Shown here: piece after piece, positions 1,839 to 24,265 of the stretch
Numbering within the stretch: position 1 is the first letter of the stretch
Layout: each line of letters begins with the position of its first letter
From: a virus
Length of the DNA: 24,469 bases
Virus record (IMG/VR): IMGVR_UViG_3300044678_002149
Span: 1-24,469 of that record
Direction: 5' to 3' (one strand)
Translations under genes and position numbers: made by a program
The notes under the pieces: model-generated
What the model saw: only the letters and a program-made list of their open reading frames with translations
Told to the model about the DNA's origin: nothing
Database searches by the model: none

Positions 1839-4023
1839 TGCGGATGGCGTTCAGTTCTTGCGCCGCGCGGCGCTGCTCGTCGAGGATACCACCCGCGGCA
1901 GATGCGCCCCGCTCCTGCATGCGGCGGATGGAGTCTTCGCGCCGATCCGCCCACCCGTGCCACCGGTCGTAGCTGAACATGGGGTCATCTGGCCACCGCG
2001 CGGCGTTCTCGCGCCGGGCGGCCTCGGCGCCCTCCCACCACCAGCGCTGCCACGCGGAGGTGTCTCGCCCGCCGCGACGCTGAACTTCCTGCGCCCACGC
2101 CGCGTCCATCTCTTGCGCGGCGGTTGCAATGCGGGTCTCGCGAGACACTGCGGCCGGAGGCTGCGCTTGCGCCCGTGCGACGCCCGCTCGGGGCTGCGCC
2201 CGGCGGGCCGCCACGCGCAAGCGCCCGACCGCGGAAGCCATCTCCACGGGGTCGTTCGTCCCGAGCAACATGGTGTAGCGGGCGACTCCGGCTTGGTCCC
2301 CTGCCTGCGCGGCTTTGTCGCGTGAAATCGCCCACTCCTGGCGCACGCGGCCAATTTCCTCCGTGGAGATTCGGTCGGTGCGCACCAGGGTGGGGCCCTG
2401 CTCCGTCTGCACCTGGAACTCCAGCGGCGCCCCGTTCTGCGGCATTGTCGCCAACGGGGTGAACGCACCAGTGGAGCCCGCCGGGCGGGCTACCCGCAGT
2501 CGCTCCTTGTCCACCCAAGCGCCCAGCGCCGCAAACGCTTCCGTCTCGTTCTTCGGCTGGACCGCGTCAACGGCTTCCTGCATCCGGTCGCGCACCAGCT
2601 GCTCCCGTTCGATCTGCGCTTGCTTCTCCGCGTCCGAGAGCTTGGCGTAGTCGGCGGGGCGGGGGGCAAACTGCTCCACCATGCGCCCAATCTCGTCCTG
2701 CTGCGTGCGGACGCTGAAACGAAACGGCGCTTTGGTATCCGGCCGCTGCAGCACGTTCCACATGCGCTCGACTTCGCCCAGGTCTTCGTCGCTGAGCACC
2801 GGGCGCAGCGAGTTTCGAATCGTGGCGAACGGGGTCTTGCGGATCTCCCCGGGCTCACGCTGCGCCATCTCTACGAACATGCGCAGCAACTTGTCCCCGT
2901 CGGCGGTGGTCACGAACCGCCCCGACTCGGCGTAGCGCTCGGCAGCGACGGCCATGCCGCGCGACTTCAACTCCTCGCGCATCGACGCCGGGAGCCCGTC
3001 GAAGCCAAGCAGCCCCGCGCGCCCCTCGGCCGCCGCGGCCCTGTTGTTGTCCAAGAACACCGTGTAGGCGTCCGTGAGCCGCCGGCGCTCGGCAGCGTCG
3101 ACAACTTGCTCGCGCTGGTAGGCCCTGTCGACGCCTTCGCGCGTGCGCTTGTACAGGTCTGCGCTGATCTTTCCCCCGTCGAAGAGCGCGTCGAGTTTCG
3201 ACTGCCGCTGCGCGTAGGGCAGCGCAGCAAGTTCTCGCTCCAGGCGCAGCGCCTTGTCGTCGTCCGCCAACGTCGCCTGCAGCTTCGACACCATGTCTGC
3301 CGCTTCGGGGGCCAGCTGCTGCGGGTCCACCGTTGCCGCGTACTCCGCGAACCCCTTCACGTCTTTCGCGTCGGCATACGCTTGCAGCGCGCCTAGGTGC
3401 ATGCTGCTCGTGGTGTCGCGGACCATGAGTTTCCGTTGAGCGCTGCCCAGCGGCAGCTGCATTGCGTCGGCGGTGGTGTGGGCCTTGGCCACCGCGGAGT
3501 CGAAGTGGTCCTTCGCTAGCGCCATGTCCCCGGTCTTCCGCGCGAGCATGAACTGCCCCATGGCCAACACGCGCGCCTTGTCGTCCTCGTCGATCGCGAA
3601 CTCGCGCTGCTCCGCGGCCCGGTGCTTCGAAACGACGTTGCCAACGTCGATCATCCGCTGCGCCGCCACCGCGTTGAACGCTGCGCGCTGGCGGTCGTTG
3701 GTGAGCCGCGACCCGATGCTCTCGCGAACCTTCTCCAGCCGCCGGAGCACCTCGGGCGCAGCCTCTAACGTGTTCAGGTTCCGGGTCTCCAAGAACGGGT
3801 TGAGTTCCCCCGCGATCGCGGCCGAGAACTCGTTGTCCATGCGGGTGGTCAGCGCCCGGTCGAACTGCGCTTGCAGCTCATCGGCCGCGATGGTGATGCC
3901 AAGCCCGGCGCGGCCGAGCCCTTCCGCGACGGCCCCGGTGCCGCGTGAACTCTGATCCTGAAAGGGAACCACCCCGGGAGCGTCGAAGCCGCCCGGCATG
4001 GGGCCCAGGTTCGAATTGCTCAC
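1831..4023 (-). CDS. Putative internal virion protein (730 aa, helical)
   Basis: The frame starts at a GTG whose first base is the last base of the upstream TAG (TAGTG). A very strong purine-rich site (GGGAGGGGG) sits just upstream, which supports the GTG. The 730-aa protein has no signal peptide or membrane segment. After a Gly/Pro-rich N-terminus of about 40 residues it is almost wholly alpha-helical, with repeated Ala/Arg/Glu-rich heptad-like stretches and several 'ISADLYKRTREGVDRA'-type helical units. Size, helicity and position between a gp14-type core protein and a giant ejection protein match the T7 gp15 slot (inner core, ejected into the periplasm to form the DNA channel). I do not recognise a named domain. 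A tape-measure-like or structural scaffold role inside the capsid is the main alternative. Confidence 0.75.
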   Translation of the reverse strand: MSNSNLGPMPGGFDAPGVVPFQDQSSRGTGAVAEGLGRAGLGITIAADELQAQFDRALTTRMDNEFSAAIAGELNPFLETRNLNTLEAAPEVLRRLEKVRESIGSRLTNDRQRAAFNAVAAQRMIDVGNVVSKHRAAEQREFAIDEDDKARVLAMGQFMLARKTGDMALAKDHFDSAVAKAHTTADAMQLPLGSAQRKLMVRDTTSSMHLGALQAYADAKDVKGFAEYAATVDPQQLAPEAADMVSKLQATLADDDKALRLERELAALPYAQRQSKLDALFDGGKISADLYKRTREGVDRAYQREQVVDAAERRRLTDAYTVFLDNNRAAAAEGRAGLLGFDGLPASMREELKSRGMAVAAERYAESGRFVTTADGDKLLRMFVEMAQREPGEIRKTPFATIRNSLRPVLSDEDLGEVERMWNVLQRPDTKAPFRFSVRTQQDEIGRMVEQFAPRPADYAKLSDAEKQAQIEREQLVRDRMQEAVDAVQPKNETEAFAALGAWVDKERLRVARPAGSTGAFTPLATMPQNGAPLEFQVQTEQGPTLVRTDRISTEEIGRVRQEWAISRDKAAQAGDQAGVARYTMLLGTNDPVEMASAVGRLRVAARRAQPRAGVARAQAQPPAAVSRETRIATAAQEMDAAWAQEVQRRGGRDTSAWQRWWWEGAEAARRENAARWPDDPMFSYDRWHGWADRREDSIRRMQERGASAAGGILDEQRRAAQELNAIRNE

Positions 4024-4750: not shown

Positions 4751-7700
4751 TCAGCCTCCAACCTCAACTTCCACAGCATACCCCGAGACCACCATGGGCA
4801 ACGGCTGGTCCTGCAGCAGCTCGAACACCCCGTCGGCCTCCCACGTCCCGTGCAAGGTCTTCTCGACTTGCGCAGTGAGCAGCCCGCCGCGGTCGTCAAT
4901 CGACGTGTAGGGCCCGCCCGGGGGGCCCAGCTTGAAGCCGGCGGAACCGAAGAGCCCGACGGTGACCTGCCGCGAGTTCTTCGTGCGCCCGGCGGCGAAG
5001 CCTTCCGCGTTGGGCACCATGATGGGCAGCGTCTCGATGAGGCAGTTGTAGGGGCGCCCGATGCAGACCTGCACCGCCGGCTTCGGCAATGTCGCCGTCC
5101 CGTCGGCCGCGACGATCACGGTGCCCACCACCCCGTCGGCCACGTAGGTTGCCACCGTCTCGGCCAGCTGCGGCAGCCCCGAGAGCGACGTTGCGGTGAT
5201 GCCCCAACTCGTCGTGGTGGTGCCAAGCACCGTGAACCCGTTGTTTTCCATCTCCAGCGCCAGGGCGTTGATGGTGTTGGAGAGGATCTTGAACTTGGCG
5301 ATGCCCCCGGTAGGGATACGTACGTGCAGCTGCCGCCCGGTGAGGCTGATGGGCCACAGGTCGGTTACCGACACTGCCGTCGCGGTTGCGCCGCCGCCAA
5401 CACCCCCGGGGCCCGCGGTGATGGAGATCGGCGACGTCCGCCACCCGTTGTAGACCGAGTGACTGTCGAGGAACGCGCTGTCCGCCCGGGTGGCCAGCGT
5501 CCGCGACGGGGCCAGCCGCTCGACGCAGTACTTGGTAACGCCCTGGATGACCCGTTCGACCACGCACCACACCACCGACTCGTTCCCTTCGCGCACCGGG
5601 GCCACCGACAAGAACTTGCCTCCTGGGGTCTCGTGCAGCGCCCACGGGTTGATCGACTGCTCGGGCATGTAGAGCATCGACATTAGCCGCCCGTCGGAGC
5701 GCACCGCGAAAACGCACGGGTTCGGCGTCTTGACGTACGCCATCTGCACCAGCGGCTGGTTGTCGAACAAGTGCGCGGCGTATACCGAGGCGTCGATGGC
5801 TTGGTACTCCGCGGAGCCCGCCCAGGACACTTCGTGCACGTGGTTGTTCCCGTACCCGACGAACAACGCGCGGTTCCCGGCGACCACCGGGCGGACTCGC
5901 GCGCACCCGACGTAGGACTGCGGGCGAACCGAGACCGACTCGGGCGTCAGCGCGTCGTCGTTCTGCGGCGTAACGCGAATCTCGCCCTGGCGCGTGATGA
6001 TGAGCAGTTGCTGCAACGAGATCGCGTACTCCAGCACGTCGTTCTCTTTTCCTGCCAGCGGGGCCACGATGCGGTCGGTCTTCTCCACGTCGTCGTGGAA
6101 GATGAAGTCGTCGAACTTCCCGGGACGGGACATCAGCAGCGAGTCGGGGGCGGAAGCCATCCCGATGAGCGCAAGCCGCTGTTCGATGAACGACACCCCG
6201 CGAGCAGGGGACGCAACGGTGGCCGTATCAAACCTCGGGGGCGTAACGGAGAAGTCCACCGCGGTGGACCCGTCATCTTCAAACGTGGTGCTTTCGTACG
6301 CCAGCCGTTCCCCGATCCGCCCAAACCGGCCGAACACGCTCTTGTAGATGCGGTACCCGGCCACCCCGAGCACCGGCTCCCACGTCAAGCGGTTCTTGTT
6401 GCCCAGCACCGTCAAGTCGTTCTGCACTTCCCCGGAGGCGACGAGCGCCCCCTCGCGGTAGTCGCCCTGGGGCGTCGGGAACAGCGTCGTAACGTAGTAT
6501 CGCGTCAACGGCGTGGAGGGAGCCTTGCGCGTCGTCGAGAACAGCTGCGTAGACGTGCCGCTGGTGGTGGCGCGCACCGTCGCCTGTAGCGCCCCGGTGA
6601 CGCTCGTCTTTCGCAAGAACAGCGACGTCAAGTCGCGCACGCGCTCAACGAGCAAGAAGTCGCCAACGGCTACGCCCGGGGCCTCCAGCGCTTCCCCGCT
6701 GCGCGTGAGCACCTGCAGCCAGTCGCCAGCGATGAGCCCGTGCCCCCCGGTGGCGCTCGACAGGAGCATGGCCCTCCCGGACTCGGTGTCGCCGCGCGCA
6801 AACCACCCTTGCGCGTCCCCGTACAGCGTTTCCACCGAGAGCCCCGTCGGCGCGGGTAGCGGCGCCACCATGGACGCCAGGGTCTCCAGCCGCCATTCGT
6901 TGAAGGTGATGCGCTTCAACGTGTAGTTCCCGACGTCTGGCACCGTGAGCACCAGCGCGTTGGCGATCAACGCCCAATCCATCGTCTTCGCCTGCGCCAG
7001 CGTGAACGGGGTGTAGATTTCGTACACCAGCGGGTCAAGCACGTGCCACGTCGCCGCGTCCGGGGGCGCCGTCGTGGACGCCGTGGCCCCTGCCGGGGTC
7101 GTCACTTTGCACGAGTAGAGGTTTCCCCCGCTGTCCACCATCTGCCCCGGGGTGTACTGCGTCGAAATCTTGATGAACGTCGTGATCGGCACCGCCCCAG
7201 CCCACAGAAACCGCAGCCGCGGCCCGGTTGGGGTGAACGACAAGAACATTTCTGTGGCGCTGCCGAGGCGGACGTACGCGGTGAACCCGTAAGGCAGTTT
7301 CTTGTTGGTGACCAATGCCCCGTCGGACTCGTCCCCGTAGGTGAACAGCGAATCGGTGGCGCTTGTCACGTACACCCGTTGGCCCTCGGTGTACCCATGC
7401 GGTGCGCCAAACGTAAGGCGCGTGTACTGCACCCCGGTGCCGCCGCCAATCGGGGTGAACCCGTTGGTCGAAATGGTTGCCTTGAACGCGGGCGGCGTTG
7501 GGCTGATGCCGACAAGCCCCCCGTCGAGCCAGAATCGCGCGTAGTTGCCGCCGAACTCGATAGCCCCGTTGTAGGTGTCCCCGTAGCTGAACGGGACAAG
7601 CATCGCCGCGCCCTTCGCGTAGCCGCGGAACTCCGTCCCTGGGCGGCTGCGGACGCTGCCCCCTGGCTGCGGCAGTGCGTTGCGGATGCGCCGCGCCCCG

Positions 7701-7789
7701 TTCTCGCGCTTGGCGTTGTCGAGCACCGCCAGCTCAGGCGTGACCTCGCCGCCTACGAACGTCCGCTGGTACTTCCGCGTGCTAGGCAT
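4751..7789 (-). CDS. Tail nozzle protein (tail tubular protein B, T7 gp12-like)
   Basis: This 1012-aa protein starts at an ATG that shares its first base with the upstream stop (TGATG), with GGGAG six bases ahead. The N-terminus carries the hallmark of the family: 'FVGGEVTPEL' at residues 11-20 and a 'NALPQPGGSVRSRPGTEF' block at about 37-54. The middle and C-terminal parts are beta-rich, with the recurring pattern around 'SVRPQSYVGCARVRPV' and 'LFVGYGNNHVHEV' seen in nozzle beta-propeller regions. In podoviruses six copies form the nozzle at the tail tip, joined to the adaptor ring and contacting the fibres. It is longer than T7 gp12 (about 790 aa), with extra Ser/Thr/Gly-rich beta segments in the middle and near the end (residues about 800-900) that may be surface insertions. 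The neighbours (adaptor domain upstream, core protein downstream) are as expected. Confidence 0.92.
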   Translation of the reverse strand: MPSTRKYQRTFVGGEVTPELAVLDNAKRENGARRIRNALPQPGGSVRSRPGTEFRGYAKGAAMLVPFSYGDTYNGAIEFGGNYARFWLDGGLVGISPTPPAFKATISTNGFTPIGGGTGVQYTRLTFGAPHGYTEGQRVYVTSATDSLFTYGDESDGALVTNKKLPYGFTAYVRLGSATEMFLSFTPTGPRLRFLWAGAVPITTFIKISTQYTPGQMVDSGGNLYSCKVTTPAGATASTTAPPDAATWHVLDPLVYEIYTPFTLAQAKTMDWALIANALVLTVPDVGNYTLKRITFNEWRLETLASMVAPLPAPTGLSVETLYGDAQGWFARGDTESGRAMLLSSATGGHGLIAGDWLQVLTRSGEALEAPGVAVGDFLLVERVRDLTSLFLRKTSVTGALQATVRATTSGTSTQLFSTTRKAPSTPLTRYYVTTLFPTPQGDYREGALVASGEVQNDLTVLGNKNRLTWEPVLGVAGYRIYKSVFGRFGRIGERLAYESTTFEDDGSTAVDFSVTPPRFDTATVASPARGVSFIEQRLALIGMASAPDSLLMSRPGKFDDFIFHDDVEKTDRIVAPLAGKENDVLEYAISLQQLLIITRQGEIRVTPQNDDALTPESVSVRPQSYVGCARVRPVVAGNRALFVGYGNNHVHEVSWAGSAEYQAIDASVYAAHLFDNQPLVQMAYVKTPNPCVFAVRSDGRLMSMLYMPEQSINPWALHETPGGKFLSVAPVREGNESVVWCVVERVIQGVTKYCVERLAPSRTLATRADSAFLDSHSVYNGWRTSPISITAGPGGVGGGATATAVSVTDLWPISLTGRQLHVRIPTGGIAKFKILSNTINALALEMENNGFTVLGTTTTSWGITATSLSGLPQLAETVATYVADGVVGTVIVAADGTATLPKPAVQVCIGRPYNCLIETLPIMVPNAEGFAAGRTKNSRQVTVGLFGSAGFKLGPPGGPYTSIDDRGGLLTAQVEKTLHGTWEADGVFELLQDQPLPMVVSGYAVEVEVGG

Positions 7790-10071
7790 CAGATGCTCCC
7801 GTACTTTCCAAAGCTGGTCGTCCCGTTGCGCACCGAGGCATAGCCGCGGTCCCCATCCTCGGAGATGACTTGCCGCTGCCTCGCGTCCTGGGTGCGCGCC
7901 TGCATGAAGAACATTTCGGCGTCGCGCCGGAGTTCGCGCGCCATCGTCGCAGCCTGCGGCCCGGTGATGAGCACCGAGGCGAGGTAGGACGCCAGCAAGT
8001 GGATGAGCCCATCAACGAAGTTGGGCGTCAGCGCCTGCAGCGACACGCCCGCCGTCGTGTAGACGATCGTCTCGCACGGGTTCCGCGAGTAGAGGTATTG
8101 CGAGTACGCGGCCGAACTTACCGGGGGGCGCTCGACGGCGTACGTCGACTGGTCGTATGCGTATTTCTCGTCCACCACCCCTGGGGGAAGCACCATCTGC
8201 AGGCTCAGCATGTCAGCCGGGAGCGGGTAGGCATACGCCCACGTCGGGTGCTTGATGAGCAAATCGCCGCTGGTCGGGGGGTCCGAGAACGTCAACGCCG
8301 TCAACGTCGCGCGCTTCGTGGCGAACGCCCAAGAGTGTTTCGCCAGCGCCGACCGGAGTTGCAGCCCGAAGAACCTCGCGCAGGCGTCGGCTTCCGGCGA
8401 CCCGTCGGACGGTTCCACGCTGAGAATCGTCGGCTTGTGCCCGATGAGTGCCAACGCGGCGTTGCACAGGTCGGCGGAGCTAGTCATGAGGTGGTAGTCG
8501 ACGTAGAGCGAGTAGACCGACGTCGAGACGGTGAAGAAGTCTTGGAAGTTGAACCGGTCAACGCGGGCGCCCCCGATGACCGTTTCAGCAAACGACAACG
8601 CACACGGGGTGTTGCTGCGGTCGCGGCCCTCGATCAACGAGCGCTGCCCAGGGGTCTCGATGGCCACCAGCCCGCGGAAGAACCACGCACCAGTCGTTCC
8701 CGCGCGATCGCTGCTGAACCCGCCCCACGCATCGGCCGGGTACGGCGCGTTGATGAGCGCCAGGAGCATGTTGGCGCACGGGCCATGCAACTGGAAATCG
8801 TCGATCTGGACGTTGTATCGCCCGTAGAATGTCTGGTAGTCCTCCCCGTCGCACCACCACCGGATACCGCAGTGCCAGCCCTTGTAGGGGAAGGTGCCCG
8901 CTCCCGCTGGCGGACCGAAAGCCGTGTTGTTCGCCAGCCCTAAGTGCATGGCGTCGAACGTGGACACGCTCACCGGGGCAAACGTCGGGGCCTGCGCCCA
9001 AAAGCCGAACGCCAAGCACCCGCCGCTGACCGTCACGGAGAACATGCGCTGCACCGCGTAACTGCGATCGACGCGGGTAAGAATCACGGCGTCATCGGCA
9101 ACGAAGCAGTACGAGCTAAGGTAGCTCGCCGACAACGTCAGCGGGTCGCGCGCCAGCCCGCCGAAGTCGGTGTTGGGATACCACGGGGTGATCGCGGCCA
9201 CGTGCTCTACTTTCGAGATCCCACCGACGATGTTGTAGAACGCGCTATCCAGAATCGTTACGTTCTTCAATACGTTGTTGGTGGAGTCCAACACGTCGTT
9301 GAAGTGGTCGCGCGAGAAGATGGGGGCGAACGTCATCCGGTCTTCGAAGTTGAGCACCGATACGTCAGTCCAACTCGCCGCTCCGGCCAGCACCCCCGGC
9401 CCGTGGATCTCAACGTCTTGCGACAGCCCCGCGTCAAAGTTGCCGATGACCACCGCCCCGGGTTCAAGGTAGAGCTTGCAGCCGCTGTTGAGTACTAGCC
9501 CGCGGGCCAGGTTCAGCGGTGGCGCCGACCCGGCCCCGGTTACCGATGTCGAGAGCGCCCCCGACAAAGTGTGGACGCCCGCCGGGAACCGGATGATCGA
9601 GTTGGCGGCGAAGCTGGTCGGCGAACTCAACGTCGTGTAGTCGACCGCCCCCACCGGAGGCACCGCGCGCAGCGGGGCGGTGAACAGCTGGAACGGGTGC
9701 TGCGCCGAGCCATTGGTCTCGATGAACAGCCGAGTGTCGGGCGGCACCGTGACGAGCGCTTTGCCCCCGGAGATGACTACCGACGCCCCGGACCGCTCCG
9801 GGCCCGGGCGCAGCACGGCGGACGTGATCGGGACCACCGCCGCCGTGACGGGGTCAAGCCGCGTGATCTCGACGGTGATCGTCTCCGTGGTGCCTACGCG
9901 GAGAAACGACGCTTCGAGCGCCCCTGCCGAGATGCGCGCCCCGGTGATGGTCGTGGAGCGCTCGCGCCCGTGCACGAACACGGACGTGCCGTTTACCTTC
10001 GCCGTGAAGCGCTTGCTGGTGTAGGCCGCGGCACCTGCGCCGGTTGGCCCCGCGTAGGTCTCGACGGTCAT
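7789..10071 (-). CDS. Fusion of a GH49-like tailspike depolymerase with a gp11-type tail adaptor
   Basis: A single 760-codon frame starts at an ATG with an ideal AGGAGG site (5 nt spacing). Residues 60-135 form a beta-sandwich-like N-domain ('VEITRLD', 'VLRPGPERSG', 'LVTVPPD', 'FQLFTAPL'). Residues about 158-528 look like a right-handed beta-helix: 'IRFPAGVH' 160-167, 'LYLEPGAVVIG' 200-210, 'IHGPGVLAG' 222-230, 'PWYPNTDF' 297-303 and 'ADDAV' 325-329. This order and the Asp pattern (D302, D326, D327) match GH49 dextranase/isopullulanase enzymes. From M529 the protein becomes a tail tubular protein A: 'SSADLCNAALALIGH', 'SWAFATKRATL', 'YAYPLPADMLSL', then an 'NFVDGLIHLLASYLASVL' helix and an Ala/Arg C-terminal helix. 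M529 (ATG at 8487) has no purine-rich site upstream, so the adaptor appears to be made as a fusion, although internal initiation is possible. The adaptor half (232 aa) is complete in length. Confidence 0.85.
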   Translation of the reverse strand: MTVETYAGPTGAGAAAYTSKRFTAKVNGTSVFVHGRERSTTITGARISAGALEASFLRVGTTETITVEITRLDPVTAAVVPITSAVLRPGPERSGASVVISGGKALVTVPPDTRLFIETNGSAQHPFQLFTAPLRAVPPVGAVDYTTLSSPTSFAANSIIRFPAGVHTLSGALSTSVTGAGSAPPLNLARGLVLNSGCKLYLEPGAVVIGNFDAGLSQDVEIHGPGVLAGAASWTDVSVLNFEDRMTFAPIFSRDHFNDVLDSTNNVLKNVTILDSAFYNIVGGISKVEHVAAITPWYPNTDFGGLARDPLTLSASYLSSYCFVADDAVILTRVDRSYAVQRMFSVTVSGGCLAFGFWAQAPTFAPVSVSTFDAMHLGLANNTAFGPPAGAGTFPYKGWHCGIRWWCDGEDYQTFYGRYNVQIDDFQLHGPCANMLLALINAPYPADAWGGFSSDRAGTTGAWFFRGLVAIETPGQRSLIEGRDRSNTPCALSFAETVIGGARVDRFNFQDFFTVSTSVYSLYVDYHLMTSSADLCNAALALIGHKPTILSVEPSDGSPEADACARFFGLQLRSALAKHSWAFATKRATLTALTFSDPPTSGDLLIKHPTWAYAYPLPADMLSLQMVLPPGVVDEKYAYDQSTYAVERPPVSSAAYSQYLYSRNPCETIVYTTAGVSLQALTPNFVDGLIHLLASYLASVLITGPQAATMARELRRDAEMFFMQARTQDARQRQVISEDGDRGYASVRNGTTSFGKYGSI

Positions 10072-10085
10072 CGCGGCCTCCTAGA

Positions 10086-12344: not shown

Positions 12345-12905
12345 TTACGGGAGCGGGTTGCCCTGGATCGTGCCCGAGTTCGACGGGGTGCCCGGGTCGT
12401 TACCGCGGATGTCCGCGTGCGGCTTCCAGGACGGCGGCGTGTCGGTGATGAACGCCGAAATCTGGCGGTCAGTAGCAGTGGCCGACAGCGCTTGCGCGCC
12501 GGTGGTCAAGGACGCCCCGAGGAACCCTTCGTACGCGACGTTGAAGTGCTCCAGTGGAAGCGCCTGCTCCCACAGGATCGTTCCGCGGGGGACAATCGTC
12601 CCCTGCGTCCCGTTGCCGACGGGGAACGCCCGCGACGAAGCGAGGAACGCCGGGGAGGCCATGTCCGCGGCGGCGTCGGTGATCAAGTGCAGCTGGATGG
12701 TGGTTTGCTGGCCGGCCACAGAAACAAGGTTGGTGGCGGCCACGAACACCGCGTAGAGGGGCCGCCCCACGCCCAGGTCGCGGAACAGCCCGGCGATGCC
12801 GGCCGTGCCCAGCGGGATCTGGTTGCCCAGGTTGCTGGTAGTGGTGGCCGCCGTCGCCGGAACGGCCTGCGCGACCCACATCTCGGTTTTCTTGTCGACG
12901 ATCAT
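12345..12905 (-). CDS. Capsid cement protein, Bbp16-like (186 aa)
   Basis: The ATG at 12905 has GGAG eight bases upstream and lies 17 bp downstream of the major capsid gene. The same frame is open far upstream through the capsid gene, but that is an antiparallel GC artefact. The protein has a beta-rich core: 'GRPLYAVFVAATNLVSVAGQ', 'TTIQLHLITDAAADM', 'VPRGTILWEQALPLEH' and 'FNVAYEGFLGASLTTG', with a flexible Gly/Pro/Asn-rich C-terminus of about 25 residues. In the BPP-1 group the cement gene (bbp16) lies directly after the capsid gene (bbp17), as here. Cement proteins clamp adjacent capsomers. The identification rests on gene order plus the strand pattern, so it is good but not certain. Confidence 0.78.
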   Translation of the reverse strand: MIVDKKTEMWVAQAVPATAATTTSNLGNQIPLGTAGIAGLFRDLGVGRPLYAVFVAATNLVSVAGQQTTIQLHLITDAAADMASPAFLASSRAFPVGNGTQGTIVPRGTILWEQALPLEHFNVAYEGFLGASLTTGAQALSATATDRQISAFITDTPPSWKPHADIRGNDPGTPSNSGTIQGNPLP

Positions 12906-12922
12906 TGGTTGTTCTCCGGGGA

Positions 12923-13945
12923 TCAGGCGGTTACGAGAGCGTTGGCCGGCTCGTTGGTGCCGAGGATGTCGCACTGCTCGACAGGGATACCGTCGAACAT
13001 CATCACGCGGCGGCCCGCGATCTGCTCCATGGTGAGCGAACTGTTCTGCACGCCCGCGCGGATCTGCTTCCGCAAGAACGTCTTGGTGCGGCGGTCGCAC
13101 AGGAACACCCAGCGCACCCCGTTGCCGCTGCCGGCGCCTCCCGGTGGACGCTCGACGGCATCGGTCATCGCGTCGATGAGGTCGGTGCCCGTCGCCGCGT
13201 TCTTGGTGAGCCCATGGATGCGCGCCACGCGGACTACGTAGCGCCAGTCGCGCACCGTGAGGCCGCAATCCCACTGGTAGTGCGAGCGGTAGATCGCCGC
13301 GCGCCCGTTGTCTCCGTCGATGTTCTCGGTGATGACCTTCCCGTAGTCGGTGATCTGCAGCCCCGCCTTCGTTCCACGCGGGTAGAGCATGTGCACCGTC
13401 TTCTCGCCGAACCCGATCAGCCACATCGAGCGGCACAGCGACCCATCGGTGACCGACGAGGCGACGATGATGTTTTCCCCGTTGGGGGCCACCGTGGAGT
13501 TGAACCGCGGGTAGAGCCCGTGGAACGCCTCCTGCTGCGTACCCTCGTTCCCGTAGATGATCGTTTGCTCCAGCAGCTGGCCGAAGCCCTCGACGATCGA
13601 CATCTCCTCCGACAACCGGAACGCGGCCGTGTTGCCGTTGATCTCGATCATCTTCGCGTCCACTTCCGCCAGGTTCTCCATGAACCCGAGCGTGTCGCGG
13701 ACCTGCATCGTGGTGCTCTTCGACGGCTTCACGCCGCCGTACAGCTTGCGGAAGATCGGGAGCGGGATCCCGGTGCGGATCGTCGTCCGGTGGCTCGTGC
13801 CTTCGTTGGCAGGGTACCACGGGGCGTACTTGAGGATCGGCTTCTGGGTGTCCAGAACTTCGGCGATGGTGTCGACGTACCCGTTCGGGTCCAGTCGCTT
13901 GCCGAGGTCCAGCAGGGTCGGGTAGAAAGTGTCCAGCGCGGCCAT
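12923..13945 (-). CDS. Major capsid protein, Bbp17-like HK97 fold
   Basis: This 340-aa protein starts at an ATG with GGAG seven bases upstream, 18 bp after the scaffold gene. The N-terminus 'MAALDTFYPTLLDLGKRLDP' and the block at residues 44-150 are typical of this capsid family: 'YPANEGTSHRTTIRTGIP' (E-loop region), 'GGVKPSKSTTMQV', 'EVDAKMIEINGNTAAFRLSE' and 'IIYGNEGTQQEAFHGLYPRF'. A P-domain-like segment follows ('VHMLYPRGTKAGLQI', then 'AIYRSHYQWDCGL'), with a C-terminal A-domain pattern ('WVFLCDRRTKTFLRKQ', 'VMMFDGIPVEQCD'). The protein builds the icosahedral shell. There is no N-terminal delta-domain of the HK97 type; a separate scaffold gene lies upstream, as expected. Length is normal for the family. 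Confidence 0.93.
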   Translation of the reverse strand: MAALDTFYPTLLDLGKRLDPNGYVDTIAEVLDTQKPILKYAPWYPANEGTSHRTTIRTGIPLPIFRKLYGGVKPSKSTTMQVRDTLGFMENLAEVDAKMIEINGNTAAFRLSEEMSIVEGFGQLLEQTIIYGNEGTQQEAFHGLYPRFNSTVAPNGENIIVASSVTDGSLCRSMWLIGFGEKTVHMLYPRGTKAGLQITDYGKVITENIDGDNGRAAIYRSHYQWDCGLTVRDWRYVVRVARIHGLTKNAATGTDLIDAMTDAVERPPGGAGSGNGVRWVFLCDRRTKTFLRKQIRAGVQNSSLTMEQIAGRRVMMFDGIPVEQCDILGTNEPANALVTA

Positions 13946-13963
13946 GTCAGGTCTCCGTTAGGT

Positions 13964-14653
13964 TCAGCGAAGCTCGGGGCTCTTTCCGAAGAACGTCCGA
14001 GCACTCGCCGGACCCGGGTTGTTGGCTTCCCCGCCGCCAACAATTGGGGTGTCCGGCGCCAGCTTCTGACCGACGGTGGCCAGAAACTCGAACACCACCG
14101 GGTCGTTGCCGAGCGGCGTGGTTCGCAACCGCTCCATCAACTTCGGTGATGCGTAGCGCAACGCCGCGGCGGCGAACTGCTTGGACTGGGGCAACCGATC
14201 ACCGCCCAACGTGGGGTGGGTCTCGATAGCCTTCCGCCCGGCCTCGGAGAACTGGCGTATCGTCTCTTGACGATGCGCCACGTCTGCCTTGGCGAACGAG
14301 TCCAGCAGCTTTTGGGCTTGCTCGGCGGGAACGCCGAGGGCCTTCCCCGTTTCCGCGAAAGCCGACACGGCTTTCGCCCCGTAGTTGAAGTCCGTAGGGG
14401 GCTTCAACTCGTACGGGGCTGCATTCGGAGCGGGGGCAGTCGCGGGTTGATCCGGGCCGCCGGCCTTGGGCAGATCGCCCAGCAGCGTGGTGCCCGAACT
14501 CGGCTGTGTGCCCGGGGCCGCGCCAGCTGCGCCCGGGGCCACTGCGGGCGCCGGGGAGGGTGGCGGGCTTTGGGGCGACGGTGTCGGCGTGGCCGGCACC
14601 TCGGGAGCCGCGGGAGTCGCAACAGGCGCGGGAGTGTTTGTGGTACCCGTCAT
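13964..14653 (-). CDS. Scaffolding protein (229 aa)
   Basis: I chose the ATG at 14653, which overlaps the stop of the Bbp19-like gene (ATGA); the frame is open further upstream but shadows that gene. The first 80 residues are Pro/Ala/Thr-rich and disordered. Residues about 88-185 are helical ('AKAVSAFAETGKALGV', 'AQKLLDSFAKADVAHRQ'), and a C-terminal block reads 'LMERLRTTPLGNDPVVFEFL' and 'VGQKLAPDTPIVGGG'. That end pattern (short-helix, 'G.G..P.V..F', 'G..L..D') is typical of phage scaffold proteins in podo- and siphoviruses, where it docks to the capsid protein. It sits immediately before the capsid gene. The low-complexity N-terminus is unusually rich in Pro. Confidence 0.85.
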   Translation of the reverse strand: MTGTTNTPAPVATPAAPEVPATPTPSPQSPPPSPAPAVAPGAAGAAPGTQPSSGTTLLGDLPKAGGPDQPATAPAPNAAPYELKPPTDFNYGAKAVSAFAETGKALGVPAEQAQKLLDSFAKADVAHRQETIRQFSEAGRKAIETHPTLGGDRLPQSKQFAAAALRYASPKLMERLRTTPLGNDPVVFEFLATVGQKLAPDTPIVGGGEANNPGPASARTFFGKSPELR

Positions 14654-14937
14654 GGCTTCATCAACAGTTCGGCGGCTTTCGCGGGCGACACGCGCCGGAG
14701 TTCCGACAGGATCTCCAGCCCGAGTTCCCGGCGGCTCGACGCGCGGGCCATCTCCAAAGCGTTCGGGTTGAACGAAGGAGACAGCACGCCCGTCAGCCGA
14801 AAGAGCCACTGCACGATGACCTGCCCCCGGGGGCCGGCGACAAGCCAGTGCAGCGCGTCGTCAAACTCGGCAGCGTCGGCGGCCGAGCGCTGTTCGCGTT
14901 CGGTCACCCGGTCAGGGTCGAGCACGTGCCGAGTCAT
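14650..14937 (-). CDS. Bbp19-like phage protein (95 aa)
   Basis: The ATG at 14937 has no ribosome binding site, but a sigma-70-like promoter ends six bases before it, so the mRNA may begin at the start codon itself (see the promoter entry). The core 'GPRGQVIVQWLFRLTGVLSPSF', then 'NPNALEMARASSRRELGLEI' and 'LSELRRVSPAKAAELLM' matches the Bbp19-like phage domain ('eGR..l..ll...gv....f..n......G.R..G..l......P......m'). In BPP-1 relatives this small gene lies just upstream of the scaffold and capsid genes, as it does here. Its function is not established; a role in capsid assembly is suggested by position. The stop overlaps the scaffold start. Confidence 0.8.
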   Translation of the reverse strand: MTRHVLDPDRVTEREQRSAADAAEFDDALHWLVAGPRGQVIVQWLFRLTGVLSPSFNPNALEMARASSRRELGLEILSELRRVSPAKAAELLMKP

Positions 14938-15445: not shown

Positions 15446-15780
15446 CGGTGGTCCTTCACGGCTTCGACAATCCGCTGCGGCAGGTGCGTCAGCTCTGCGC
15501 GAAGCACCGCCCACTCTTCCGAACGAACGCGCTCCCCGGTGTTCATCTTGTCGATGACACCGCGCAGGATCTCGTTGTTGGCCGTCTGTGCGTTGGTCGC
15601 CGCCTGCGACGCCGCGGCCATCTTCTCGACGGCTTCGTACATCTTGCGCCCGATCCCGACAATGACCACCCCCAGCAGCCCCAGCGCGGTGTAGTGCTGC
15701 ACGCTGCTCTCGTCCACCGTGATGAGAAGGCCGGTAGCCGCGAACACCCCGGGAATCGCCAGATTGTGGATGAGAGACAC
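15442..15780 (-). CDS. Holin- or i-spanin-like membrane protein (112 aa)
   Basis: The start is a GTG sharing one base with the portal stop (TAGTG). Residues 7-22 and 31-46 ('LGLLGVVIVGIG') are hydrophobic and could be two membrane segments. The rest (47-112) is a long charged helix ('MYEAVEKMAAASQAATNAQ', 'ILRGVIDKMN', 'ELTHLPQRIVEAV') that could form a coiled coil. Two spans plus a cytoplasmic tail would fit a class II holin; one span with a long helical tail, followed by a lipoprotein gene, would fit an inner-membrane spanin. I cannot decide between them. No endolysin is recognisable nearby. The longer open frame upstream shadows the portal gene. Confidence 0.65.
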   Translation of the reverse strand: MSLIHNLAIPGVFAATGLLITVDESSVQHYTALGLLGVVIVGIGRKMYEAVEKMAAASQAATNAQTANNEILRGVIDKMNTGERVRSEEWAVLRAELTHLPQRIVEAVKDHR

Positions 15781-17468
15781 TAGACGCCTTGCGGTGATGG
15801 GTAGTTGTACCCGGTGAACTGCGACAAGATGTCGGCAGGCGCGGCGGCTTGCGCTTGCGCAGCCAGCTTCGCCGTCCCTGCCTGCAGATTGGCCATGTTG
15901 GCCGCGTCCTTCGCGGCCAGCGCCTTCGCCCGCGCCTCGCGGATCGCCTGCACCGCAGACTGTTCGCGCATGAGCGACGGGTCGACGTTGAAGGCATCCG
16001 AGTAGTAGTCGACCACTGCGTCGGTATCGACGTTGTCCACCGCGCTGCTGTCCAGCCCGGCGATGCCGCGGACCGTCCCGAGGAACCGGTCGACTTGCGC
16101 CGCGCCAACCAAGCGCTGCGCCAGCGCCAGCACCGACACGAACTCGATGTCCAACGGCGCGTCCATCAGCTCCTCGGGCGGCGGGGGCAGCCAACCGAGT
16201 TGGATCACCTGCCGCGCCATGCCGAGCGCCGCCGGCTCCAGCGTCGATTCCTGCATGCTCTCGTAGAACGGGCCCAACTGCTGCAGCCGTTCCTCGTGGC
16301 GGATCAACGCCTCGCCCTTCGTCATCTCGCGGTTTTCGAGGGCCTGCATCATGCGGAACAGATCCGCGTAATACGCTCGGTTCACGCGCTGCTCGACGCG
16401 GGCGATGTCTTCCCCGAGGTCGCGCAGGTTGATGTCGTTCAAGTAGACCGGGCGCACGCCGACCGGGTTGTCGGTCGTCAAGTGCCCGCCAGGGACGAGC
16501 CGCGCCTCCTGGCCCTTCGTCTGCGTCGGGCCCTGCGTCGGCGGACGGACTTTCAGCTTGATGGCGCGCGACTTGTCCAGCTCCTCCGATTGCAGCTGAA
16601 TGGCGTCGCCACGGGCCTTCATCCCCGGGCCGTACCCGTACACGTCGCTGCTCACCACCGACCACCGGGGGCATAGAGCCGGGAACGTCTCGAACCCCGA
16701 CTCGCGCAGTACCTTGGTTTCCTCGGTGGCCTCGCGGTAGATCGAGGCGAACGGCATCTCGATGTTCATCGCCGATTGCCTGTCGCGCTGCGTCCGCGGC
16801 TCGATGCAGTGCCACACTTCAATGAGCATGTCGAACTCGCGCCGCTCCCAATGGTTCTTGACGTTGTCGCTCACCGCGTCAAGCCCGAACTCCATCACCA
16901 GCTGTTCGACCGTGAGTTCCAGCTGCCGGTACAGGGTGTTGACGCGCTGCCGCGCGTCCTGCGCCAGCGCGTATTCGCCTACCGTCAACGTCTGGTAGTG
17001 CATCACCGTGTTGCCGTCGCCCGGGGTGTGCAACATGGCCGCGGTGCCGAACACCGCGTCCTCCGCGTACAGGTGCGGAACGGCTTGGTAGAAGTTCGAC
17101 TTGGCGAACCCGAGATGCGTGGCCTTGGTAAGCAAGTCGAACCACTTGCGCACCGGGCGGTAGCGGGCCAGCTCCGGGTCGCGCGTCGTGAACCGGTGCC
17201 ACACTCGCGCGGGCGACGTTACGTTGGACATCAGCCCCGCGACGCACGTCTCGATGGCCTGCGTCGGGGTGTTGTTGATGATGTCGTCCCCGCGCGGGCG
17301 CCCGCGGGTGGCGCGGTCTGACAGCACGAAGCGCCCTGCGTAGGGCCACTGCCAGCGGATGATGTCCTTCCACGTCGCATCGTATGACGAACGCTCCTGC
17401 CAGAGCGCTTCCTTGCGCCGCCGCAGGTAGCGGGCAAGCTCTTCTTGGGACATCCGCGCCAGCACCAT
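15780..17468 (-). CDS. Portal protein (head-tail connector, T7 gp8-like)
   Basis: This 562-aa protein starts at an ATG three bases after the previous stop, with a GGGGG-rich site upstream; a second Met at residue 6 is possible. Diagnostic parts: 'WKDIIRWQWPYAGRF' at 33-47, 'NNTPTQAIETCVAGLMSNVT' at 65-84 followed by 'SPARVWHRF', and later 'VVSSDVYGYGPGMKARGD' and 'EERLQQLGPFYESMQ'. These are the head-tail connector pattern of podoviruses. Twelve copies form the ring at one capsid vertex through which DNA is packaged and ejected. The C-terminal 60 residues are Ala/Lys-rich helix, ending in a Pro/Gly tail. It is slightly longer than T7 gp8 (536 aa). Neighbours on the packaging side are the terminase and GNAT genes. 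Confidence 0.94.
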   Translation of the reverse strand: MVLARMSQEELARYLRRRKEALWQERSSYDATWKDIIRWQWPYAGRFVLSDRATRGRPRGDDIINNTPTQAIETCVAGLMSNVTSPARVWHRFTTRDPELARYRPVRKWFDLLTKATHLGFAKSNFYQAVPHLYAEDAVFGTAAMLHTPGDGNTVMHYQTLTVGEYALAQDARQRVNTLYRQLELTVEQLVMEFGLDAVSDNVKNHWERREFDMLIEVWHCIEPRTQRDRQSAMNIEMPFASIYREATEETKVLRESGFETFPALCPRWSVVSSDVYGYGPGMKARGDAIQLQSEELDKSRAIKLKVRPPTQGPTQTKGQEARLVPGGHLTTDNPVGVRPVYLNDINLRDLGEDIARVEQRVNRAYYADLFRMMQALENREMTKGEALIRHEERLQQLGPFYESMQESTLEPAALGMARQVIQLGWLPPPPEELMDAPLDIEFVSVLALAQRLVGAAQVDRFLGTVRGIAGLDSSAVDNVDTDAVVDYYSDAFNVDPSLMREQSAVQAIREARAKALAAKDAANMANLQAGTAKLAAQAQAAAPADILSQFTGYNYPSPQGV

Positions 17469-17770: not shown

Positions 17771-18229
17771 CTAGCTCAACTCCTTGCAGAAACTGACGTC
17801 GTGAAGGCGGTAGCTCGGCAGCTTTCCCATCGCCCGGTGCATGTCCGACCCGTGGCGCATGCTCCACAGCGCAACGTGCGCGCCCTGGGCGCGGGCTAGC
17901 TGTTCGCTGGCGCGAATCAGCCGGCCCCCGAGGCTACGCCCTCGATGCTCGGGGTTGACGTAGAACACGTCGTTTAGCATGACGCGGCGGCCTGCGTAGT
18001 GCATGTGGTCGTCCACGAACACCACGGAGTACCCGGCGAGTTCGCTCCCGTCCATCGCCACCGTCGCGAAGACTTTCCCGGCCTGCTCGGCCGCCGCGTA
18101 GCGGGCGACGTCGGGCGCGACGGCCCAGTGCTCCAGCCCGAGAGCGATCTCTGCGTGGTTCTTCTGCAGCAGCGCCCCGGAGAGATGCCAGAACTCCCGC
18201 ATGGTCGCGCGTCGGATGTCGATGGCCAC
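17771..18229 (-). CDS. GNAT-family N-acetyltransferase (152 aa)
   Basis: The most upstream sensible start is the GTG at 18229, which gives 'MAIDIRRATMREFW', a typical GNAT beginning (strand, then 'R.A...D/E'). Residues about 82-118 form the acetyl-CoA binding motif: 'VMLNDVFYVNPEHRGRSLGG' followed by 'RLIRASEQLARAQGA'. In the usual R-x-x-G-x-G loop the middle Gly is replaced by Ser99 here. 'YSVVFVDDHMHYAG' supplies the preceding strands. GNAT enzymes move an acetyl group from acetyl-CoA to an amine; the target cannot be read. The gene sits between terminase and portal, where many podoviruses carry such an enzyme. It might modify a host or virion protein, or inactivate a host factor. Confidence 0.85.
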   Translation of the reverse strand: MAIDIRRATMREFWHLSGALLQKNHAEIALGLEHWAVAPDVARYAAAEQAGKVFATVAMDGSELAGYSVVFVDDHMHYAGRRVMLNDVFYVNPEHRGRSLGGRLIRASEQLARAQGAHVALWSMRHGSDMHRAMGKLPSYRLHDVSFCKELS

Positions 18230-20704: not shown

Positions 20705-21012
20705 GGGTAGCCCGCCCGATGAACGCCGATGTCGTCAATCGCCTTCGCTACCACCCGCATCAGCTTCTGCTCGGCCGTGGCCAGCCGTTCCGCCGCGGCC
20801 ACCACGAGCTTGTGCTGCACGTCGAGGGCCTGGAGGTCGTCCGCGGTGACGTGCGTCTGCCGGGCCATGGTGCTCGCCGCGTGCCACATCGCGAACTCGT
20901 TTGACTGCTGGAATGCGGCCATCACCCGGCGCTGCTCGGAGCACGTAGCCATGAACTCGTACCCGAAAAGCGAGAACTTTTCGACCGACTCGAACCCAGT
21001 GTCGAAGCTCAT
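20701..21012 (-). CDS. Small helical protein (103 aa), unknown
   Basis: The ATG at 21012 overlaps the stop of the previous gene (ATGA) and has GGAG eight bases upstream. A longer open frame upstream only shadows the toroid protein gene. The product is nearly all helix: 'SEQRRVMAAFQQSNEFAMWH' and a long 'ALDVQHKLVVAAAERLATAE' segment that could form a coiled coil. It could be a DNA-packaging accessory protein, but no motif supports a specific role. Confidence 0.68.
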   Translation of the reverse strand: MSFDTGFESVEKFSLFGYEFMATCSEQRRVMAAFQQSNEFAMWHAASTMARQTHVTADDLQALDVQHKLVVAAAERLATAEQKLMRVVAKAIDDIGVHRAGYP

Positions 21013-22940
21013 ACCGGCATCTCCGCGGCAAGCGGCACGTCCGGGGGAATCCACCCCGTGGCCTGGTAGTGCGACCCGATGCCCGCGTCGGCGCGGACTT
21101 GCGCCAAGATGGCGCGGGCCTTCTCGTTCTCGGGCTCGTGCTGCAACACCACCTGCAGCGCGCACGGGAGCCACGCGGTGGTGAAGAACCCGCTGCGGTG
21201 CTTCCGCTGCCCGTCCAGCGCCAAGTTCTCGTACTCGGTCCACCGGCCCCCTGGCTGCGCCGGGGCCTCCCACGCATCGTCCAGCACTTGCTTCGCCCCG
21301 TTGAATGCGACTTGTGCGGCCGTGTCGTGGCCAAACACGCGCGCCGCCAGCGACATCCCGTAGGCCCCAATCGCTTGGTGCCACGCGAGCCACCAGTCGC
21401 CAGTGCCGACGCGCGCGTCGTCCTTGATGATCTGCCAAATGGTGTACCCCCCGATCCACGGGATGATCACGCGCCCCAGCCGGGTGAGGAAGTGGTCGCG
21501 AACTTGCGCGGCGAGCGTGCGGTCGTCGAGCGCATACCACAGGCGGACCACCGCGAGCCCTTCCCACCCAATTTCTCGGGCCGAGAACGGGTCGCTGGTG
21601 CCCAAGCCCTTCACCGTCGTGCGCTCGATCAGGTAGCGCCGGGCCTCGTGCTCCAGCAGCCACTGCGCGCTCGGGGACGGGTCCAGCATGCACACCGCGT
21701 AGAGCGTGCCGAAGAACCAGTGTTGCGCGTCGGGCCCGTTCCAGCCTCCCGCCTCCTGAATCGTCAAGTCGCGCGGCTTGCCCAGCGTGTCGCTCGTCGT
21801 CGCGCGGAACGGGCGCCCGTAGAACATCCGCAGCCCTGGGCGGCGCTCGCGCGTCACGATGGACCCGTCACGCTCCAGATGGTGGCACGGGCGCCGGCCG
21901 AAGCCCAGCGCGGCGAAGTAGCGCGGAAGGATGGCGCACGGGATAAGCAGCGCTTCCACGCCAGGGTGGAACGTCTGGTCTTCCTGGCTCCCGGTCTGGC
22001 CACTGTCTGCGGCCGGGCCGAGCATCGGGGCGACGCGGGCGCCGAGCGATGAGCGGGCGGACTCGTAGTGCTGCGCGACCCAGTGGCGCACGTGCTCTTC
22101 CATCCCCTCCATCCCGTGGAAGGGCGCGGCCCCGGGGTGCAACCGCACTTGCCCGTGGCCCTTCACGCGCTGCCACACATGCGCCGCGGCGCGCGTGGTG
22201 GCGAAGTTCACCAGATCGAGGAACAGCACTGAGACCGGGAAGACGTGCGTTTGCCCGTCAGCGATGACGGCGCCCGGGGGCAACCCCGAGCGCTCGCTGA
22301 CGGGCACCACCACGCCATGATTCCACCGGATGAAGTAGCCGCTGCCCGGGACCGTGTGCGTCAGCTCCGGGCTGCTCGGGTCGCTGTGCGTCACGCGAAA
22401 CTCGGCCATGATCAAGCCCGGGTGATCGGGATACCACTTCGCGCACAGCTCGAAGAAGATCGGGCCCCGCCGCGCCTCGAACTTCGCATACCACGCGGCC
22501 CCGAACACTTCTACTTTCGCCAACGCCAGCGGAAAGTTGCCGCCTTCGCCGGTCACGCTCGGGCCTGGGGACACCGCGACCCGGAACGTATTCGTCAGCG
22601 CTGCGTCACTCACGCGCACCGTCTCCTCTTCCACCATCTGCGCCCGGTCGATGGTCAGGGTACACCCCGCTTCGATCGCCACGTAGAAGTCGACTTCCAC
22701 CGAGTCAAGCCCCTTGTTCCGACCGCGGATGAACGAAGCGCTCACCCTGCCGGGCAGATGCGCGTAGCCTCTTGACGGAACGCTGGCGCGGTCCTTGAGA
22801 ATGCACGTGACCCAGCCCACGAACGACTCGTGGTGCAGGTTCTGGATTCGGACCGTCCCCAGGTCTTGGGTATTGTCCACTAGGGGGGTGGGGGCGCTCG
22901 GGACTTCGAGTTGCACGGGTGCTGGCGTTGCGTCGGGCAT
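21009..22940 (-). CDS. Large two-domain protein: beta domains plus helical toroid, possible polysaccharide-active protein
   Basis: I chose the ATG at 22940 (643 aa). The frame is open to 23138, but that extension is Cys/Gly/Arg-rich and does not look like protein. No ribosome site is visible at either start. Residues 25-270 are beta-rich ('VRIQNLHHESFVGWVTC', 'VDFYVAIEAGCTL', 'IMAEFRVTHSD', 'VIADGQTHVFPV'). Residues about 280-643 are helical with aromatic/His motifs: 'TGSQEDQTF' at 316-324, 'RPCHHLE' at 350-356, 'GWNGPDAQHW' at 399-408, and paired helices to the end. This is the layout of beta-sandwich plus (alpha/alpha) toroid enzymes, such as polysaccharide lyases and the PcRGLX/YetA type. 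That link is from memory and tentative. It has no secretion signal, so if it acts on glycans it is probably carried in the virion. Confidence 0.72.
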   Translation of the reverse strand: MPDATPAPVQLEVPSAPTPLVDNTQDLGTVRIQNLHHESFVGWVTCILKDRASVPSRGYAHLPGRVSASFIRGRNKGLDSVEVDFYVAIEAGCTLTIDRAQMVEEETVRVSDAALTNTFRVAVSPGPSVTGEGGNFPLALAKVEVFGAAWYAKFEARRGPIFFELCAKWYPDHPGLIMAEFRVTHSDPSSPELTHTVPGSGYFIRWNHGVVVPVSERSGLPPGAVIADGQTHVFPVSVLFLDLVNFATTRAAAHVWQRVKGHGQVRLHPGAAPFHGMEGMEEHVRHWVAQHYESARSSLGARVAPMLGPAADSGQTGSQEDQTFHPGVEALLIPCAILPRYFAALGFGRRPCHHLERDGSIVTRERRPGLRMFYGRPFRATTSDTLGKPRDLTIQEAGGWNGPDAQHWFFGTLYAVCMLDPSPSAQWLLEHEARRYLIERTTVKGLGTSDPFSAREIGWEGLAVVRLWYALDDRTLAAQVRDHFLTRLGRVIIPWIGGYTIWQIIKDDARVGTGDWWLAWHQAIGAYGMSLAARVFGHDTAAQVAFNGAKQVLDDAWEAPAQPGGRWTEYENLALDGQRKHRSGFFTTAWLPCALQVVLQHEPENEKARAILAQVRADAGIGSHYQATGWIPPDVPLAAEMPV

Positions 22941-23178
22941 GGTGTGTTGGGGGTAAGTTGTCCTGCCCCGTCTACCTGCGCGAACCACCAAGTAGCACCA
23001 GCACCCGGGCCTCTCACCACACAGCCCACCAGCGCACGCCATGCCTGTCGTGCACTGCTTGTCGCCTCTCTCGATGGACTGCTGATACCGGGCGCCGGCG
23101 CCACTCGCGGTTGCGCTTGCGAGACTGGGGCAGGACACCGGGAGAGAGCGCGCGCCGGCGGAATGTCTCGCCGCGGTG
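22941..23178. other. Intergenic gap between terminase small subunit and toroid protein genes
   Basis: About 240 bp without a convincing gene. It contains a perfect 12-bp GC palindrome (GGCGCCGGCGCC, 23091-23102). I found no good -35/-10 pair and no hairpin with a U-run. This is the longest gap in the operon, so a promoter or packaging signal could be hidden here, but I cannot show one. Confidence 0.5.
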
Positions 23179-24017: not shown

Positions 24018-24078
24018 GCGGAGCGCGGCGCCGGGGCGGCAGCACGTGGTGGGCACCGGGCCGTGCCTCGACGGCGGA

Positions 24079-24265
24079 GAGGCGCAGCGGTGGCGAGGCG
24101 CAGCGGCGGAGAGGCGCAGCGGTGGCGAGGCGCAGCGGTGGCGAGGCGCAGCGGCGGAGAGGCGCAGCGGTGGAGAGGCGCAGCGGTGGAGAGGCGCAGC
24201 GGTGGAGAGGCGCAGCGGCGGAGAGGCGCAGCGGCGCCCGTGCGGTGGCGAGGCGCAGCGCCGCC
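24079..24265. repeat. Tandem array of a 16-bp GC-rich unit, about 11 copies
   Basis: The unit GAGGCGCAGCGG-Y-GG-M repeats without spacers from 24079 to about 24238 (10 copies). After an 11-base interruption one more degenerate copy follows at 24250-24265. Variation is limited to position 13 (T/C) and position 16 (A/C). Because 16 is not a multiple of 3, any translation would have a 16-residue period using all frames, which argues against coding. Confidence 0.93.

Follow-up and report, generated by a model that had tools for sequence, protein, structure and literature searches.

A predicted glycosidase joined in frame to the tail adaptor of an uncultured short-tailed phage

Receptor-binding and depolymerase parts of phages are normally separate proteins docked on the tail. 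In the uncultured short-tailed phage described here, a predicted glycosidase of the GH49/GH28 type and a complete tail adaptor of the gp11 type are instead encoded as a single polypeptide, and our analysis of its reading frame, its homologues and its related loci indicates that this fusion is real, natural and rare, a variation on an established modular theme. The fusion is known from a single contig, a virus record of 24,469 nucleotides (IMG/VR record IMGVR_UViG_3300044678_002149) that was analysed over its whole length and is referred to below as the window.

Results

The fused gene occupies positions 7789–10071 of the window on the minus strand, the strand that also carries the other window genes and gene features located below. 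Read from 10071 to 7789, the frame contains no internal stop and translates into 760 residues, of which 1–528 form a beta-helix-type, enzyme-like half and 529–760 a complete gp11-type adaptor, as an earlier sequence-only reading of the same DNA had claimed. Translation would start behind an AGGAGG ribosome-binding site (10072–10082) with a duplex energy of −10.2 kcal/mol, a value reached by only 0.6% of random positions, and the stop codon overlaps the start of the nozzle gene (tail tubular protein B, gp12-like; 4751–7789; phrog_376, E 2e-113) in the sequence TGATG. The window also encodes a BPP-1-like major capsid protein, GP7 (12923–13945; PF20911, E 2e-101), which served as the anchor of our survey of related loci, a portal or head-to-tail connecting protein (15780–17468; PF12236, E 1e-133), a terminase and an internal virion protein; judged by these neighbouring genes, the phage is short-tailed with a BPP-1-like structural set. 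A gene for a GNAT acetyltransferase (17771–18229; Pfam Acetyltransf_1) lies between the portal and terminase genes, and a large ORF upstream of the terminase (21009–23138) found no match in Pfam and PHROG scans. Towards the right-hand end of the contig, about 10 tandem copies of a 16-base unit (CGGTGGAGAGGCGCAG) span positions 24072–24234, and several reading frames of either strand run through this array without a stop.

When the two halves of the protein were searched separately, as the sequence-only reading had advised, the adaptor half was recognized directly and the enzyme half only through bacterial relatives. Specifically, the adaptor domain (232 residues; 7792–8487) matches phrog_394 with its residues 529–735, over positions 1–176 of the 190 in the profile (E 4e-26 to 9e-25). 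In an alignment with eight adaptors of phage or IMG/VR origin (BPP-1, phages of Caulobacter and Limnohabitans and metagenomic phages among them), Met529 falls on their first residues, and the join thus lies exactly at the natural methionine of the adaptor, as had been proposed. In an AF2 model of the full chain (40 alignment rows) the adaptor has pLDDT values that are mostly 90–98 and displays the helix bundle and fibre-dock strands of solved adaptors. Foldseek searches with this model returned the Carin-1 connector (8ck1_E, E 1.4e-11) and also 5mu4, 7box and 7ey7, such that the matches comprise the Carin-1 connector, LME-1, KP32 TTPA and T7 gp11. Likewise, the adaptor lies directly before the nozzle gene, as is the case for gp11-type adaptors.

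The enzyme half (8488–10071) by itself had no match in scans of Pfam, PHROGs (tail-fibre families included) or NCBIfam, and tblastn against phage records gave nothing meaningful. A single weak relative was found by tblastn on a Persicobacter plasmid (E 3e-3), and this protein itself resembles dextranase and GH28. Six further bacterial relatives were then collected, four from 289 genomes of the phylum to which the Spartobacteria locus L218 belongs and two from the Persicobacter plasmid record, and four of the six are GH28 by Pfam. A joint profile of all eight sequences (the window and seven bacterial proteins) matches dextranase 6nzs (E 3e-39) and isopullulanase 1wmr (E 4e-36), and the profile built from the bacterial sequences without the window matches these entries too. 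Furthermore, hhalign places this bacterial-only profile colinearly on window residues 4–515 (99.2% probability, E 9e-20), covering an N-terminal sandwich-like region followed by the beta-helix, and hmmsearch with the enzyme profile finds the window protein with E 3e-26. Scans of viral contigs for the enzyme half and its bacterial relatives found none; a single candidate, in L002, was rejected as a 22-residue stretch within an unrelated ORF. We saw no signal peptide in the enzyme half, and because homology begins at residue ~4 there is no room for a separate tail-anchor domain. Modelled alone with AF2, this half reached a pLDDT of 33, and the full-chain model gave no enzyme half.

Through these bacterial relatives, the enzyme half appears to belong with the GH49/GH28 glycosidases of clan GH-N, in which catalysis is carried by the NTD and DD positions. 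D302 of the NTD motif (codon 9166–9168) and the pair D326 and D327 within ADDAV (codons 9091–9096) are invariant between the window and the seven bacterial relatives, and the DD of 6nzs and 1wmr matches the profile columns of D326/D327; these are the predicted catalytic aspartates. It is worth considering that this half may instead be a catalytically dead appendage with a carbohydrate-binding or structural role. The glycine after NTD is not kept, such that NTDG has become NTDF, the region after residue 330 aligns poorly, and sequence identity to the enzymes is about 20%; the motif change and the low identity leave enzymatic activity uncertain. In addition, the appendages fused to other adaptors resemble binding or structural modules, with a weak CBM5/12 match in two of the loci described below (L095 and L098). 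Nonetheless, all three active-site-type aspartates are retained, and we regard a dead appendage as unlikely. The sequence-only reading had taken this half for a tailspike depolymerase. Its beta-helix-type enzyme character is what the profiles support, but the likeness is to the GH49/GH28 clan, whose members are single-chain hydrolases, and not to a trimeric tailspike; "depolymerase" is thus a predicted function. Because the sequence relatives are single-chain, trimeric assembly is unlikely, and the difficulty once raised of seating a trimeric spike on a 12-subunit ring does not arise.

The predicted enzyme half aside, it is informative to examine how adaptors are encoded in related phages. Capsid-protein searches of viral contigs and bacterial genomes yielded about 200 loci with an adaptor, most of which encode it as a separate gene (188 separate starts were scored). 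An adaptor fusion is not unique to the window: other appendages are joined to the N-terminus of the adaptor in related phages, and to its C-terminus in phages of Vibrio. Three loci (L033, L095 and L098) possess homologous N-terminal parts of about 930–1030 residues that are joined through proline-rich linkers, with no usable start at the junction. Long N-terminal fusions are present too in L096 and in L037 (identical with L097). In L213, a prophage of a cultured Oryzomonas isolate, a domain of about 97 residues, whose own start is preceded by GGAGG, continues into the adaptor, and there is no ATG at the natural adaptor start. In L094, which lies inside the otherwise fused clade, a 467-residue appendage ORF (12593–13996) overlaps the adaptor start (adaptor ORF 13993–14751) by ATGA, and this arrangement likely represents a two-gene precursor state, one small indel away from fusion. 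Although N-terminal fusions recur in the related contigs, none contains the window's enzyme: the enzyme profile matched only the window among the phage loci searched, the other appendages are unrelated to the enzyme half, and no relative with the same enzyme–adaptor pair was found among the ~200 loci. In the tree of the major capsid protein the window pairs with L156 (support 99), its closest sampled relative by this protein, which has a separate adaptor gene and a different upstream protein, and the fusions need at least two origins. Inheritance of the fusion from the L033 clade finds no support on these grounds, as it conflicts with the pairing with an unfused relative and the N-terminal parts are unrelated; the window fusion appears to have arisen apart from this main fused clade.

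Other arrangements were encountered in the survey. Vibrio phage K294 (L009, 6016–8268), like many other isolates of Vibrio phages, possesses an adaptor protein (PHROG 9239) that continues beyond the adaptor domain, on the C-terminal side, into Ig-like domains and a glycine-rich region. A 423-residue ORF in L120 (12923–14191) contains two complete tandem adaptor domains, which might form a six-unit ring in place of a twelve-unit one. The nozzle gene of L004 (6630–9433) is seemingly split into two ORFs, the first of which ends in a Hint/intein-like domain (weak Pfam matches to Vint and PT-HINT). Upstream of the adaptor in L011 (MW202742) lies a gene for a PelZ-like pectate lyase (1977–3353; NCBIfam E 1e-19, far below the cut-off), indicating that enzymes also exist as separate genes in that genome region.

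Within the fused ORF of L037 (13862–15622), the ATG at which the adaptor would naturally begin has been kept, together with a strong GGAGG Shine-Dalgarno sequence before it (−9.3 kcal/mol), and the ORF may on this account make two products from one frame. If the window did the same from its own internal ATG (8485–8487), fused chains and free adaptors would mix and only a few subunits of the ring would bear an enzyme. The plausibility of dual products in L037 and the exact retention of Met529 at the natural start are consistent with such a mixture. However, the internal ATG of the window has no ribosome site (+0.4 kcal/mol, a value that 94.5% of random positions match or surpass), in agreement with the original observation that it is bare while the fusion start has its AGGAGG, and L033, L095 and L098 keep their adaptor yet have no usable start at the junction. 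These relatives also contradict the suggestion that mixed products might be required, and we consider a mixture in the window distinctly improbable.

The reading of the window gene as one continuous frame depends on the sequence around the junction. Enzyme homology stops at about residues 515–518, and the enzyme half closes with ~10 residues (VYSLYVDYHL; 8488–8517) that constitute a very short linker. Third-position GC stays at about 0.9 through the junction and is 12 of 12 in the final 12 enzyme codons; the sequence-only reading had used this feature as an argument against a recent frameshift, and a codon log-likelihood test based on codon frequencies from seven other window genes strengthens it. 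Over the last twenty codons before the junction, frame 0 is ahead of the +1 frame by 25.6 nats, and over the last 10 it is ahead of +1 by 10.8 and of +2 by 17.9 nats, while in the final ~7 codons the difference is below 6 nats, such that an indel there is outside the reach of the test. Since enzyme homology extends to residue ~515, the enzyme domain is complete at the junction. A frameshift artefact is hence largely rejected, the last ~7 codons excepted.

A sequencing or assembly indel within those codons would imply that the true state is two genes overlapping by ATGA, with the adaptor translated by coupling. Indeed, a TGA in the +1 frame overlaps the ATG of Met529, and this ATGA had been read as a hint that two coupled genes once met here. 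The motif is present and L094 shows that a real overlap of this kind exists, but taken alone it is weak evidence for a past overlap because the +1 frame stays open there over no more than 49 codons and ATGA or GTGA occurs at 15 of the 188 separate adaptor starts. A translationally coupled gene could do without a Shine-Dalgarno sequence. Nonetheless, 84% of the 188 separate adaptors possess one that is at least as strong as −4 kcal/mol, and in 2% the value is −1 or weaker; 10 of the 15 that start with ATGA or GTGA keep theirs, whereas the window's ATG has none. Given further that the eligible stretch is only ~21 bases, that no other large gene of the window is broken and that comparable fusions occur in independent records, an isolate genome among them, we judge an artefactual join to be very improbable.

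Discussion

We propose that the fused gene yields one chain that begins with a single-chain glycoside hydrolase of the GH49/GH28 type and proceeds through a short linker to the tail adaptor. On assembly, the adaptor part would form a 12-subunit ring under the portal, holding up to 12 copies of the enzyme covalently around the tail, where they would cut surface or capsule polysaccharide as the phage nears the envelope. No separate anchor domain would be needed, unlike in trimeric tailspikes that dock between adaptor and nozzle. As to origin, an appendage gene just upstream probably overlapped the adaptor start, as in L094, and a small frameshift or stop loss fused the two. We hold this proposal as a whole, from single chain and enzyme ring to an overlapping neighbour as the source, to be probable; our views on copy number in the ring, placement on the virion, catalytic activity and its substrate, and the sequence of evolutionary steps are inferred.

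Several observations bear on how such a particle might be built. In T7, twelve copies of the adaptor gp11 make up a ring seated on the portal, and the trimeric fibres are docked where adaptor and nozzle meet (PMC6702177). As the relatives of the enzyme half are single-chain, no trimer is needed for twelve copies to sit on such a ring. By a rough estimate, which speaks to plausibility, the T7 tail width of ~175 Å corresponds to a circumference of ~550 Å, with room for twelve domains of ~45 Å. In addition, adaptors have been reported to bind receptors or degrade capsule (PMC7241545, PMC5440376), showing that they can be surface-active. A bolder version, which we put forward tentatively and with rather less than even confidence, is that an obligate ring of up to twelve covalent single-chain glycosidases replaces docked trimeric spikes, and that the adaptor N-terminus is a general attachment point of this phage group, repeatedly capturing enzymes or appendages by fusion of overlapping neighbours.

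Our searches of the open-access literature turned up no adaptor–depolymerase fusion. The parts are known and the principle of fusion is recurrent; it is the combination of enzyme and adaptor that is new among the literature and loci examined. Such a covalent fusion would fix copy number and position and dispense with an anchor domain, and twelve single-chain enzymes around the tail, if confirmed, would represent an alternative to the trimeric spike. The fusion would tie a predicted GH49/GH28-type enzyme to a virion protein, at an adaptor N-terminus that seems to have served time and again as a natural place for fusion. Because a single clade holds adaptors in separate, overlapping and fused form (L094, L037 and L033/L095/L098), the steps of fusion can be tested.

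It is also informative to set the window protein beside known systems. It shares family, fold, pre-nozzle position and start residue with the gp11-type adaptors (PHROG 394; BPP-1 Bbp14, Carin-1 8ck1_E, T7 gp11, KP32 TTPA 5mu4), although these are separate proteins of about 180–230 residues and the window adaptor has a 528-residue enzyme at its N-terminus. N-terminal appendages on phrog_394 adaptors, as in L033, L095, L098, L096, L037 and L213, follow the same plan, but they are unrelated to the window enzyme and the L033-clade fusions are of separate origin. K294-type tail tubular proteins (PHROG 9239) likewise carry a sizeable additional region on the adaptor chain; theirs is C-terminal, Ig-like and glycine-rich and not an enzyme, whereas that of the window is N-terminal and enzyme-like. 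With its relatives GH49 dextranase and isopullulanase and GH28 polygalacturonase, which act on dextran, pullulan or pectin, the enzyme half shares an N-terminal sandwich-like region and a predicted beta-helix, colinear in alignments through the bacterial proteins, and the three aspartates. However, those enzymes are secreted and free-standing, while the window enzyme lacks a signal peptide, lies within a predicted virion protein and has NTDF for NTDG. Trimeric depolymerase tailspikes of the P22 gp9 type have a beta-helix architecture, predicted here, and presumed polysaccharide degradation in common with it, but the window protein shows no N-terminal anchor, is linked to single-chain enzymes and is covalently part of the adaptor. 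Finally, the dual-function adaptor KP32 TTPA is comparable in that polysaccharide-degrading activity has been claimed within an adaptor protein (PMC5440376); there the adaptor fold as such is credited with the activity, whereas in the window a separate predicted glycosidase domain is attached.
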